A stretch of DNA of 64,000 bases from a virus: the IMG/VR virus record IMGVR_UViG_3300035698_007246, positions 126,001 through 190,000 of that record. One strand, 5' to 3'. Under the pieces are notes generated by a model. It was not told where the DNA came from and did not search any database. It was given only the letters and a program-made list of their open reading frames with translations. The position numbers and the translations under genes are program-made. Each line of letters starts with the position of its first letter. The stretch's first letter is position 1. This document shows positions 7,470 through 52,587 of this stretch, piece after piece.

Positions 7470-7485
7470 AATATCTCCAATAAAA

Positions 7486-7559
7486 TACACCTGCCCGGTC
7501 TCGAACCGGATTATATGGATTTAGGGTCCATCGTTTTACCAAACCTAAACTACAAGTGC
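7486..7559 (-). tRNA. tRNA with apparent amber anticodon (CTA)
   Basis: A clear class I cloverleaf: acceptor GCACTTG/CAGGTGT, D stem GTTT/AAAC, 5-bp anticodon stem ATGGA/TCCAT, T loop TTCGAGA, discriminator A, no CCA. The seven-base anticodon loop is CCCTAAA. In the standard register position 33 is C instead of T and the anticodon is CTA, which would read UAG. Several genes here end in TAG, including the polymerase. The unusual base 33 leaves decoding uncertain. Confidence 0.6.
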
Positions 7560-7565
7560 AAATAA

Positions 7566-10575: not shown

Positions 10576-10658
10576 TGGTAGTGTAGGTGGGAGTTGAACC
10601 CACATTCTCAACACCAATTACGATTCTCCACCTTATCAGAGTGGGTCGGTACTACACT
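10576..10658 (-). tRNA. Aberrant tRNA, Ile(GAT)-type loop
   Basis: Acceptor AGTGTAG/CTACACT, T arm and encoded CCA are normal. The anticodon arm CCACT-CTGATAA-GGTGG follows the acceptor after only TACCGAC, so there is no D arm. A ~24-nt region after the anticodon arm carries CGTAATTGGTGTTGAG; its TTGGT can pair with ACCGA of the linker. A second gene at 21211-21294 shares this layout. Confidence 0.6.
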
Positions 10659-21210: not shown

Positions 21211-21294
21211 TGGTAGACGCATAGGGACTTGAACCCTAATTTTCAACAACCAATTACGAATATACTGCTTATGAGGCAGTCTCGGTATACGTCT
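21211..21294 (-). tRNA. Aberrant tRNA with CAT anticodon
   Basis: AGACGTA/TGCGTCT acceptor, T arm (TTCAAGT) and CCA are normal. ACTGC-CTCATAA-GCAGT follows the acceptor after only TACCGAG. The region after the anticodon arm holds TTCGTAATTGGTTGTTGA; ACCGA can pair with TTGGT. Same architecture as 10576-10658. Confidence 0.6.
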
Positions 21295-21605: not shown

Positions 21606-21613
21606 ATGTATTT

Positions 21614-21790
21614 ATTTCATATTAATAAGATGGATTTATATAACCATATGGAGAATCTCTTCTGTGCGGTCTACTCTCCAGACCAGAACATTGTTATGCA
21701 TAACTCTGTTCATATTCAAGCACCATCCTTTTGAGATGATTGGGAGCACTCATATCATCATTTATTAAATCCACCTAATTAATATGAAAT
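21614..21790 (-). ncRNA. Structured RNA with ~25-bp outer stem
   Basis: ATTTCATATTAAT...GGATTTA and its near-perfect complement enclose about 125 nt with a GGAGA...TCTCC hairpin. Contains a 19-codon frame without a ribosome site. The conserved GAAGATTGA motif is absent. Confidence 0.4.
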
Positions 21791-21964
21791 AAAAGAATTA
21801 TCTCTCCACAAAATGATTTCACAACCACTTCCCTCATCGGGAATAAAGGGATTGAAAATCCTAAAATTCCATATTAATGGATTGTTTGGAAACATCGTGG
21901 AACCTGTCCACCACTCGAATGAAAAGCTATTGTAACCAATATTTAAGATGGGTAACCCCACCAC
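21779..21964 (-). CDS. Trp-rich ORF, 61 aa, uncertain start
   Basis: GTG-started frame encoding SFEWWTGSTMFPNNPLIWNF and IILWRDNSF. The composition is protein-like, and the open frame extends further upstream without ATG. It may be the C-terminal part of a gene broken by neighbouring RNA elements. Confidence 0.35.
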   Translation of the reverse strand: MVGLPILNIGYNSFSFEWWTGSTMFPNNPLIWNFRIFNPFIPDEGSGCEIILWRDNSFISY

Positions 21965-21996
21965 TTTTCTAATAAGCAGATATCTCCAAACAACCC
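21881..21996 (-). other. Inverted repeat pair flanking 90 nt
   Basis: GGATTGTTTGGA and TCCAAACAACCC are complementary except for one position and could fold as an RNA arm over the Trp-rich frame. Confidence 0.35.
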
Positions 21997-22147
21997 TTAT
22001 ATAAATTCTCCCTAAGAGAGAAATTATTTTCGTTTACACATGATTTTTACATCATGTAATGTGCTTTCTTCATTACCCAAAAATGTCAAAGAACTTTATA
22101 GAGTGCGATGTCATTTGACTTTCGCTTCTCTAATTTAAGACCCCTCT

Positions 22148-22176
22148 AATATAATTAATTGTATTTGAGAAGTCAA
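22148..22176 (-). promoter_or_regulatory. Early-type promoter (21.6-22.1 kb RNAs)
   Basis: TTGACT, 17-nt spacer, TATATT, upstream of the Trp-rich ORF and outer-stem RNA. Confidence 0.7.
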
Positions 22177-22204
22177 TAATTATTTTGAATTAATTTTCAA
22201 TTTT

Positions 22205-22230
22205 AAAAAAGGAAGGTTGTGGGAACAACC
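22205..22230 (-). terminator. Rho-independent-type terminator
   Basis: GGTTGT-TCCC-ACAACC followed by TTCCTTTTTT on the minus strand, ending the tiny gene at 22255-22329. Confidence 0.65.
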
Positions 22231-22254
22231 GATTTTTCAACCTATCCTGATTTA

Positions 22255-22329
22255 CTACGCTCGTTTAGAGTTTTCAATGTAAATCAGGGTATATGCCCCC
22301 ACAACAGCAATTCCACTCATAAGTAACAT
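22255..22329 (-). CDS. Tiny membrane protein, 24 aa
   Basis: MLLMSGIAVVGAYTLIYIEN... is one hydrophobic helix. It has AAGGAG before the ATG, an early promoter upstream and a terminator downstream, so it forms its own transcription unit. Function unknown. Confidence 0.55.
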   Translation of the reverse strand: MLLMSGIAVVGAYTLIYIENSKRA

Positions 22330-22404
22330 AAGTCACTCCTTTGTTAGAGTTTTAAAAACTGTTTATTAATCCAAAAATTTCAAAGAACTTATTTTTACAT
22401 CACT

Positions 22405-22446: not shown

Positions 22447-22600
22447 AATTTATATAGCAAGGGGGACTCGAACACCCAGATAACGCCATTACCACGGAAA
22501 TCACAGCTAATCCTCGACTTTGCTTTCGCTTTCAGCACTTAACCCGCCCTCTGTGTAGGTTCACCTGTGCCAGCATTACTATATAAATTTAAAATTTCAA
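22447..22600 (-). ncRNA. tRNA-like RNA with extended acceptor and long insert
   Basis: An ~18-bp stem (TTTAAATTTATATAGTAA and complement with one G-U) closes about 115 nt ending in a T arm (loop TTCGAGT). The expected acceptor ATAGTAA/TTGCTAT continues into the stem. No simple anticodon arm. It has its own early promoter. Too small for a tmRNA, and no tag frame is evident. Confidence 0.45.
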
Positions 22601-22991: not shown

Positions 22992-23090
22992 TGTTGGCTG
23001 ATAGATTTGAACTATCATCTGCACCTTTAACGATGCTATCATCCTTAAGGATAAGACACCTTGTCATGTTACTAATTACACCAAGCCAAC
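22992..23090 (-). ncRNA. 99-nt aberrant tRNA
   Basis: GTTGGCT/AGCCAAC acceptor and T arm GATAG-TTCAAAT-CTATC are sound. The middle holds AAGG...CCTT with an 8-base loop, a GATG-ATAG-CATC hairpin and CGTTAAAGGTGCAG, resembling the extra region of the two D-arm-less tRNAs. Anticodon not assignable; no CCA. Confidence 0.45.
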
Positions 23091-23185: not shown

Positions 23186-23251
23186 TGGGGTGACCGAGGA
23201 GGCTCGACAGGAACCACAATCCTGTGTTCTACCAGTTGAACTACAGTCACC
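23186..23251 (-). tRNA. tRNA-His(GTG) with truncated T arm
   Basis: G at -1 opposite C73, GTGACTG/CGGTCAC acceptor, CAGGA-TTGTGGT-TCCTG, CCA encoded. Only 11 nt (TCGAGCCTCCT) replace variable loop and T arm; the TTCGAAT-type loop is missing. Confidence 0.7.
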
Positions 23252-25623: not shown

Positions 25624-26352
25624 TTATAATGGCAAAAACGGTGCATGACCAGTTAAAAAATTATCAATAGGAACATAATTATCATCATTAGGATTAACTA
25701 TTTCTTCCACAACGACACCAGTTGCTTCTTTTAACTCTTCCAATGAACCATCATTATCTATAACATAGAACCATTCTTTAAAATGGTCTAATGCAATTTC
25801 AGATTCATGTTGGTCTACAATACCAGTTTTGCGTTCAACACGTATTGTAATAACTGTTATTTCGTCCATATCAACGTCATTAAAGACATTTATTTCATTA
25901 GGGAACCTTGTGTCTGTTATAACAATAACATTGGCTTCTGACTCTAATACTCGCTCTTTAACTTGTTTTGCCCAATAATCAGAATCAACACGGTTTCTGA
26001 ATATTTCAGTTCCGTATATTTGAAGAAGGGCACGAGTCACACCATTCTTTTTCTCAAAATAGTTTTCATCTTTGACTTTAATCTCGTCTATTGCTGCAAT
26101 TAAAGAATCGAGCATAGTATTTTTGGTCATTACATTAGTAAAAGTATTCACCAATGATTTTAATGACTCTGCATACCCATTAAGATATGTAGCTAACTTT
26201 TTAAAATCATCTTTGCAGTTATTTTTGAGGTCATGTGCAAACAAATCTGTTTCTACGGTTAACCCACGAGATTTCATATTTTCAATAATATAATCTGCCG
26301 TGACATTTTTTCCTGTCTGCATTTTCCCAGACATCAATATTACATATTTCAT
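25624..26352 (-). CDS. Deoxynucleoside monophosphate kinase
   Basis: 242 residues. The P-loop SGKMQTGKNVTADYI at residue 8 and the conserved TRALLQIYGTEIFRNRVDSDYW and VIVITDTRFPNEI blocks match T4 gp1-type dNMP kinases, which phosphorylate dNMPs, including modified ones, to diphosphates. It works with dUTPase and the reductase in the nucleotide supply route. Confidence 0.8.
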   Translation of the reverse strand: MKYVILMSGKMQTGKNVTADYIIENMKSRGLTVETDLFAHDLKNNCKDDFKKLATYLNGYAESLKSLVNTFTNVMTKNTMLDSLIAAIDEIKVKDENYFEKKNGVTRALLQIYGTEIFRNRVDSDYWAKQVKERVLESEANVIVITDTRFPNEINVFNDVDMDEITVITIRVERKTGIVDQHESEIALDHFKEWFYVIDNDGSLEELKEATGVVVEEIVNPNDDNYVPIDNFLTGHAPFLPL

Positions 26353-51378: not shown

Positions 51379-52587
51379 TTATAAAATCTTCATCAACATA
51401 TCAACATAACCCGGAGATTCAGTGTACCAATGTGATTTAACCATTTGATGATACTGAGCTTCACGTATTTTATTAAACTCATCAGGTTCACACAATTTAT
51501 CAAATAGTTTATCAATTTCAGGCAATGTGATATTATCTGGAGTTTTAATTTTACACACATCATACGGTGATTGTTCACCATTTGTGAAATATGTTCCAAT
51601 CCCAACTGCACCAACTGCACAATACTCTTGATACTTGATACATGATTTTGAATAATTAAAAAAGTTAGGAACCAACGGTGAAATTCCAAAATGAGGATTC
51701 ACATTAATAACAGCCAAATGATATTGATAAGAATTCAACCAAGGAATTACAGTAATTTTATCCTTAATCGGTCGAAAGAAAAATGGTAATCCGCCCATTT
51801 GATAAAAATCAATTTTACCTTTCCTCACATTTTCAATAACCCAACCCTTCCATGCATTGTCCATATCCCCAGCAAGTTCTTTTTGGTCGTGCCAATGTGT
51901 CGGGGACGCTGACCATAGAACTCTCGGTTTCTCAATACGTTCAGTTATAGGTGGTTTTTTGGCACTTCCCCAAAAAGCCTGAGACACAGTATTATGCACA
52001 ACACGTATTTTATCCTTATCAATCCCCTTGGAGACTATATAGTCCCCTAAAAACTTCGTAGAGACACAAACGATGTCCATCATCTTCATTATCTCTATGG
52101 ACGCTCTCTGGACTTCTGGTGAGATTGTATTCTTTCCAAAGTTATATTCTGGGATTTCTTCACCCTCAGCTGAACCATCCCATATAAAATCGTCAACATC
52201 GTAGATAAGTTTAAATTTATGTTTTTTTTGAAGCTCTTTATATTGAGCAACCATTGGTATTTGCTGAGGTGCCATAGTTCTTTGAAACCATATAGAACGT
52301 GTTTTTTGTAATATATGTTGGTCATATATAAACATTCCTGGTGGACATATAAATGCATTAAATCTTCCTGATTTTCCAAATACTGAATTTAAATAATTCA
52401 TAGGAAAAGCGGTCCTAATATAGCCACATCCCGTGTCATCCGATTTGTAAGCTAATACGATATTTTTTTGAACCCTCGATATTGCTGTATTTTTTTGACT
52501 AATGTTATTAAAACCAACATTCGGTTTATTAATCATTTCTTCAAATTTTTCTTTATCCGATGTTGGCAAAGTGCTAATATTACTCAT
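51379..52587 (-). CDS. Glycosyltransferase-like protein (GT-B)
   Basis: 402 residues. A central VCVSTKFLGDYIVSKG...VHNTVSQAFWG is the acceptor/donor hinge common to GT4-type enzymes; VLWSASPTHWHDQKE and EYCAVGAVGIGT follow. Likely a phage-type GT-B transferase. Acceptor unknown; the fucose synthase gene at 54.5 kb could supply sugar donor. Confidence 0.6.
   Translation of the reverse strand: MSNISTLPTSDKEKFEEMINKPNVGFNNISQKNTAISRVQKNIVLAYKSDDTGCGYIRTAFPMNYLNSVFGKSGRFNAFICPPGMFIYDQHILQKTRSIWFQRTMAPQQIPMVAQYKELQKKHKFKLIYDVDDFIWDGSAEGEEIPEYNFGKNTISPEVQRASIEIMKMMDIVCVSTKFLGDYIVSKGIDKDKIRVVHNTVSQAFWGSAKKPPITERIEKPRVLWSASPTHWHDQKELAGDMDNAWKGWVIENVRKGKIDFYQMGGLPFFFRPIKDKITVIPWLNSYQYHLAVINVNPHFGISPLVPNFFNYSKSCIKYQEYCAVGAVGIGTYFTNGEQSPYDVCKIKTPDNITLPEIDKLFDKLCEPDEFNKIREAQYHQMVKSHWYTESPGYVDMLMKIL

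Follow-up and report, generated by a model that had tools for sequence, protein, structure and literature searches.

Phage tRNA-Ile and tRNA-Arg genes with a displaced D-loop: probable elongator tRNAs of a new topology

Two genes on the minus strand of a viral DNA, along with their relatives in other phages, probably encode phage elongator tRNAs that are functional but have a topology not seen before (probability about 0.88, judged from sequence comparison). In these tRNAs the equivalents of nt 10–21, i.e., the 5′ strand of the D-stem and the D-loop, would be placed 3′ rather than 5′ of the anticodon arm; seen otherwise, the anticodon arm would be nested within the D arm. Such tRNAs are referred to below as rewired.

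Two tRNA genes without a local D arm

The DNA analysed (the window, 64,000 nucleotides) corresponds to positions 126001–190000 of a viral record of 223,879 bp. It encodes a T4-like DNA polymerase, ~30–33% identical to the polymerases of T4-like cyanophages. The record has ~30 tRNA genes in a minus-strand cluster. When the window was scanned by ARAGORN, 26 tRNA genes were called and both rewired genes were missed. The Rfam tRNA model (RF00005) gave the two genes scores of 34.7 and 35.2 bits (cut-off 29); in the resulting alignments the D arm was skipped and ~21 nt lying 3′ of the anticodon arm were treated as an insertion.

The first gene (10576–10658, minus strand), a rewired tRNA-Ile(GAU) of 83 nt, reads AGTGTAG-TACCGAC-CCACT-CTGATAA-GGTGG-AGAATCGTAATTGGTGTTGAGAAT-GTGGG-TTCAACT-CCCAC-CTACACT-A-CCA. 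The second (21211–21294, minus strand), of 84 nt and probably a rewired tRNA-Ile2(CAU), reads AGACGTA-TACCGAG-ACTGC-CTCATAA-GCAGT-ATATTCGTAATTGGTTGTTGAAAAT-TAGGG-TTCAAGT-CCCTA-TGCGTCT-A-CCA. With the family model R1 they scored 88.0 and 86.7 bits, respectively. The original prediction had placed two real tRNA genes here, with acceptor, T arm and CCA intact, and this was borne out: the 7-bp acceptor, 5-bp anticodon and 5-bp T stems are all perfectly paired, CCA is encoded, and both genes carry U33, a UUCAA T loop and A73. It was also correct that a local D arm is absent. Only 7–8 nt separate the acceptor from the anticodon stem, and the D hairpin of the canonical cloverleaf (nt 9 to 26) is missing.

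In the gene at 10576, the anticodon GAU lies at 10635–10637 in the loop CUGAUAA, on a 5-bp stem. The putative equivalent of nt 23–25 is CGA (10646–10648), the 5′ strand of a helix that would enclose the anticodon arm; it covaries with UCG across 22 relatives. UCG itself (10621–10623) would be the equivalent of nt 10–12 and the 3′ strand of this helix, as suggested by covariation and by RNAalifold. The candidate displaced D-loop, UAAUUGGU (U13 A14 A15 U U G18 G19 U20), occupies 10613–10620 and was assigned on the A14/R15/G18/G19 pattern, the variable length at 16–17, the covariation of 15 with 48 and the correlation of N20 with isotype. U48, the Levitt partner of A15, is at 10604, and the T arm GUGGG-UUCAACU-CCCAC, assigned from stem pairing, at 10587–10603. 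In the gene at 21211, the anticodon CAU is found in the loop CUCAUAA (21271–21273), and alignment with the relatives (A1, below) places the equivalent of nt 23–25 (CGA) at 21282–21284, that of nt 10–12 (UCG) at 21257–21259 and the displaced D-loop UAAUUGGU at 21249–21256.

Besides the two rewired genes, no Ile gene was found by ARAGORN or Rfam among the ~30 tRNA genes of the whole record, while AUA is used in this phage at a frequency of 27 per 1000 codons (18 large ORFs). The CAU gene at 21211 is therefore most likely a tRNA-Ile2 rather than a tRNA-Met. Two canonical CAU genes are also present in the window, and look like elongator and initiator tRNA-Met.

A further gene, at 22992–23090 (minus strand), had been noted for a similar segment. 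It is not of the same kind, as it has its own upstream D arm and scored 21.1 bits with the family model, much like a canonical tRNA. It is a 99-nt tRNA-like gene with canonical D and T arms, between which ~49 nt form three hairpins. No relative of it was found in GenBank phages. Its isotype is ambiguous from the sequence, and no Asp tRNA was found elsewhere in this phage. Other RNAs were observed in the window, again on the minus strand. A 62-nt tRNA-His(GUG)-like gene (23189–23250) has a truncated T arm, CGAG-CCUC-CUCG, without a UUCRA loop, and scored above the Rfam tRNA threshold (34.2 bits). At 22456–22585 there is a tRNA-like RNA of ~130 nt, with the acceptor AUAGUAA/UUGCUAU, a UUCGAGU loop and a long interior, the size of which recalls the stable tRNA-like RNAs of T4 and T5. 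More apparently structured non-coding stretches lie between tRNA genes at 21610–22340; one of them has inverted repeat arms of ~24 bp at both ends (near 21612 and 21770). The tRNA at 7485–7560 has a CUA anticodon, was called Pyl by ARAGORN, and is a possible amber suppressor.

A family with covarying helices

Relatives were sought in IMG/VR by pattern scans. The first of these (TACCGA, any anticodon, CGTAATTGGT) returned 23 loci, mostly coding look-alikes, which were discarded by demanding that the stems of the acceptor, anticodon arm and T arm be paired; every true tRNA had the anticodon GAU or CAU. Looser scans gave a diverse set with freely varying acceptor, anticodon and T stems, and tRNAs that share the layout but have Arg anticodons turned up within the loci of the Ile scans. 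Two further scans, in which GGA was fixed and the anticodon left free, yielded a large set among the matches listed. With a stringent structural filter, at least 250 and later at least 259 distinct members were counted in 3.1 Mb of fetched loci, while none was found when this DNA was Markov-shuffled three times; hence the rewired architecture in these loci is not due to chance. Selection had been predicted from the sharing of linkers between genes whose stems differ, and is upheld by a large covarying family.

Among the matches listed, the Arg anticodons were UCU (101), ACG (57), UCG (35), CCU (17), GCG (4) and CCG (1), and the others Ile GAU (20), Ile UAU (15), CAU (7), UCA (1) and Lys CUU (1). 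The only members listed outside Arg, Ile and CAU were thus L203:440 (plus strand), the UCA anticodon of which would read UGA, and L327 (minus strand, 33), with the CUU anticodon. Two rewired tRNA-Ile(UAU) genes (L032:8578 and L045:4368) were seen to contain an extra hairpin-like segment (e.g. GAUAAUAUC) 5′ of position 48, resembling an added variable arm.

The detector behind the count of at least 259 demanded at least 2/3 D-stem pairs, as well as U33; D-stem statistics were therefore drawn from alignment A1, which holds 22 Ile/CAU members, most of them gathered without requiring D-stem pairs. The members have a 5-bp anticodon arm with a 7-nt loop and a 5-bp T arm with a UUCRANN loop, TTCRA being part of some search patterns. 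In A1 the CGA/UCG helix was paired in 66/66 cells, with two-sided changes at 2/3 pairs, the variants being CGA/UCG, CGG/CCG, CAG/CUG, CGU/ACG, CGC/GCG and CUC/GAG. RNAalifold recovered this helix from A1 with no structure supplied. The 15–48 Levitt pair (A1 columns 42/68) also covaries, being AU in 12, GC in 8 and GU in 1 of the 22 sequences. The motif U13 A14 R15..G18 G19 N20 sits 3′ of the anticodon arm, and its 16–17 stretch is variable in length.

A long-range helix around the anticodon arm had been predicted, and such a helix is supported; the pairing proposed for it, ACCGA with TTGGT in place of the D arm, is not, the conserved one being CGA/UCG. The proposed pairing can form perfectly in both window genes, and ACC and GGU are nearly invariant among Ile members. 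For the gene at 10576 it even gave a slightly better folding energy (−20.0 kcal/mol, as against −19.1 with CGA/UCG and −19.3 with neither). The energy of one sequence does not favour the CGA/UCG helix, and is no arbiter between the two. Across the 22 relatives, ACCGA/TTGGT showed no compensatory change; 83.7% of its cells were paired, the inner pairs were mostly lost, and the A13 pair was broken in 12/22. The suggested search for TACCGA...TTGGT tRNAs in other phages did bring up relatives. In these TTGGT was not conserved, being replaced by CTGGT, ATGGT, AAGGT, AGGGT or GCGGT; that it varies while TACCGA stays argues against the ACCGA/TTGGT helix. In Arg members, moreover, the bases 5′ of CGA covary with NNUG and not with GGA. 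We consider this pairing very unlikely, and the GG of TTGGT is better read, on sequence grounds, as G18–G19 of the displaced D-loop.

Another arrangement would be a local D hairpin (UCG...UGA) merely shifted 3′ of the anticodon arm, with CCGA serving as a spacer. In the gene at 21211, UUCG can pair with UGAA around a D-loop-like sequence. When the relatives were compared, the first pair of this hairpin was present in only 54.5%, the other two pairs showed no compensatory change, and UUGA was replaced by UUGU, UUGC etc., which makes a shifted hairpin hardly credible.

The displaced D-arm reading gained a second helix from alignment A2, a gapless set of 42 Arg members taken among the matches listed. 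From A2 alone, RNAalifold returned the acceptor, UANN/NNUG, CGN/NCG, anticodon and T stems. The second helix is formed by U8 A9 N N with N N U G lying 3′ of the D-loop. Its column pair 10–48 was GC in 21, AU in 17, CG in 2 and UA in 2 (42/42 paired), and column pair 11–47 was CG in 32, UA in 6 and AU in 2 of the 42 members. It may be noted that the UANN/NNUG helix played no part in the selection of sequences. It is best seen in Arg-type members; in Ile members it is short and irregular. The acceptor-stem cells were paired to the extent of 96.8% in A1 and 98.6% in A2, and pair 25–10 was non-standard in 14/42 Arg members. Model R2, built from A2 (Arg anticodons alone) and including neither window gene, scored the genes at 10576 and 21211 at 55.8 and 53.8 bits, respectively, while every canonical tRNA of the window scored 28 bits or less.

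The second helix also bears on the idea that these RNAs are precursors, intron-like or permuted, from which canonical tRNAs arise by splicing or rearrangement. Permuted tRNA genes occur in archaea and algae; in them the 3′ half is encoded first, and the usual order is regained on processing. They share with the rewired genes an order of elements unlike that of a normal tRNA gene. In the rewired genes, however, the 5′ half precedes the 3′ half as usual, and the normal ends meet in one acceptor stem, so the altered order is inherent. The UANN/NNUG helix, besides, pairs the displaced segment with the 5′ linker in the order in which the two are encoded; in a canonical tRNA made by rearrangement this helix would serve no purpose. 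A precursor origin is accordingly most improbable.

Synthetase identity and the phages that carry rewired tRNAs

The bacterial identity determinants include A20, in the D-loop, for ArgRS and U20 and A73, among others, for IleRS (PMC9976931). Nucleotide 20 was examined in a test set of 62 members whose retrieval had left N20 free; the association of A20 with Arg in the full set is biased, two scans having demanded GGA, and was left out as evidence. A20 was present in 34/35 Arg members as compared to 1/25 Ile and CAU members (Fisher p = 1.7e-14, a value inflated by related sequences), and the Ile members had U20. A73 was found in 42/42 Ile and CAU members; in Arg members this position was A, U or G, rarely C. 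Anticodon-free patterns with GGA gave Arg members plus one Ile among the matches listed, and patterns with GGU gave Ile/CAU only. The synthetase identity elements (A20 for Arg, U20 and A73 for Ile) thus agree with the anticodon. Since N20 is isotype-specific, the displaced loop behaves as a D-loop read by synthetases. The rewired tRNAs are presumably charged, and would decode Ile codons in this phage and, for the Arg members, AGA and CGN.

Decayed or recombined pseudogenes, or tRNA-like decoys acting outside translation, might also lack a cloverleaf, and some members are indeed labelled tRNA-OTHER by annotation programs. Such an origin has little to recommend it, as U33, the anticodon loop, the T loop and CCA are conserved, every stem shows strong compensatory change, N20 and N73 are isotype-specific, and members occur in unrelated phage families.

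When consensus members were used in BLAST, hundreds of GenBank phage records were matched. Besides Felix O1, 14 records were examined: Pseudomonas phages PA11, Boevelstad and UAVern; Vibrio phages D419 and valsw3; Klebsiella phages KpS8 and Roth37; Caulobacter phages CcrPW and phiCbK; Brevundimonas phage Kabachok; Escherichia phages wV8, alia and PBECO4; and Streptomyces phage Stanimal. Members also occur in Mydovirus, Justusliebigvirus, CcrColossus and uncultured phages of 635–642 kb. Most members in GenBank phages are unannotated, often lying inside gaps of tRNA arrays, and a few bear the tRNA-OTHER label. In PA11, Roth37, wV8 and Felix O1 (L371, L378, L383 and L388), a rewired tRNA-Arg was observed near HNH homing-endonuclease genes.

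Two of these phages had been described as wanting an Arg tRNA. phiCbK was stated to be the sole phage of its group without one (PMC3556154), and in Felix O1 a tRNA for the Arg codon AGA was expected but not found by its authors (PMC3185647). phiCbK (NC_019405) has a rewired tRNA-Arg(ACG) with a GCCA end at 52333–52412, and Felix O1 (NC_005282) a rewired tRNA-Arg(UCU) with an ACCA end at 25951–26029, as expected from its relative wV8. On sequence evidence, these genes would account for the missing Arg tRNAs. Some phages have canonical tRNA-Ile or tRNA-Arg genes alongside the rewired ones, which are therefore not always essential; this coexistence fits either redundancy against tRNA attack or plain codon supply.

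Outside these phages, no true member was found with an Ile-GAU pattern in loci from 84,980 bacterial species genomes, with one exact Arg pattern in 369 gammaproteobacterial genomes, or among 5,426 E. coli genomes when a single Arg consensus was used in BLAST. Plasmids gave no credible match, and the tRNA regions of T4 and T5 contained no member. Model searches of bacterial genomes, a weak test with ~12 candidates scored per genome, were likewise negative. As the genome searches for the Arg type covered single patterns or a consensus, rare prophage copies of this type may exist.

Proposed fold and significance

From the 5′ end, the proposed order of elements would be the acceptor strand, U8 A9 (N N), nt 23–25, nt 26 and the anticodon arm; then a linker equivalent to 44–47, which is 3–5 nt long or, in the Felix O1 type, 8 nt; nt 10–12 and U13 A14 R15..G18 G19 N20; and finally N N U G, an A-rich linker, Y48, the T arm and the acceptor-CCA. 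U8–A9 would be spaced from nt 23–25 by one nucleotide, or by two in most Arg members. The 23–25/10–12 helix would extend the anticodon stem into one interrupted helix from which the D-loop bulges out, the bulge being closed in Arg members by the further helix U8 A9 N N/N N U G. In place of a cloverleaf, the acceptor, the T arm and the extended anticodon arm would meet in a three-way junction. In canonical tRNA, the places to be linked by the new joints (9 to 22/23, 44–47 to 10, and 21 to 48) are already close in three dimensions, and therefore the L-shape could in principle be kept, by analogy with general tRNA structure. The contacts G18–55, G19–56 and 15–48 would still be possible, so that host ArgRS and IleRS could read N20, N73 and the anticodon.

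Like canonical tRNA-Ile and tRNA-Arg (RF00005), the rewired RNAs have a 7-bp acceptor, a UUCRANN T arm, a 5-bp/7-nt anticodon arm with U33 and N73-CCA, along with A14 R15..G18 G19 N20, covariation of 15 with 48, A20 for Arg and U20/A73 for Ile. They differ in that the D-loop and the 5′ D-stem strand would lie 3′ of the anticodon arm, with no local D hairpin and with a three-way junction. D-armless and armless mitochondrial tRNAs (PMC7609411) likewise lack a D hairpin between the acceptor and the anticodon arm. Those tRNAs have lost the D-loop, whereas the rewired ones appear to keep its conserved nucleotides elsewhere, in an RNA longer than normal. tRNA-Sec and allo-tRNAs (PMC7609411, and general knowledge) are also functional tRNAs off the standard cloverleaf; in them arm lengths are altered and element order is kept, while in rewired tRNAs the order itself seems altered. 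No such fold was found in 5.4 million open papers, a body of literature without subscription journals and the bulk of preprints, or in a review devoted to non-canonical tRNAs (PMC7609411). Judged from their sequences, the RNAs appear to be tRNAs by every functional mark examined, with a topology that has no known match.

Phage-encoded tRNA sets also figure in studies of tRNA-targeting defences, where phages are described as adapting through mutated anticodon loops or through ordinary tRNAs that are strongly expressed (PMC10264068, PMC11555353); no new fold is described there, unlike the one proposed here. The rewired fold might itself be an adaptation that arose once, perhaps in a tRNA-Arg, shifted to Ile by anticodon change, spread among unrelated phages, and evades host tRNA-cleaving defences or tRNA-modifying enzymes. 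We regard this as tentative and, at well under even odds, rather doubtful. By such a route the geometry of the D arm and elbow would be altered while synthetase and ribosome contacts are kept. As the anticodon loops are unchanged, it is not evident how their sequence would evade anticodon-loop nucleases; enzymes that recognise the D arm or elbow might be evaded.

All tRNAs are assumed to have their arms in the cloverleaf order, and known exceptions lose or stretch arms. Widespread tRNAs of a different order would show that the L-shape is reachable by another topology, and which contacts are needed by synthetases, RNase P, modification enzymes, EF-Tu and tRNA nucleases would become directly testable. 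Several hundred apparently working tRNA genes would have been missed by standard annotation, so that the tRNA counts of many phages, Felix O1 and phiCbK among them, would be incomplete. Phages of E. coli MG1655, Caulobacter and Pseudomonas offer convenient systems for work in the laboratory. The rewired RNAs may also serve as a source of orthogonal tRNAs.
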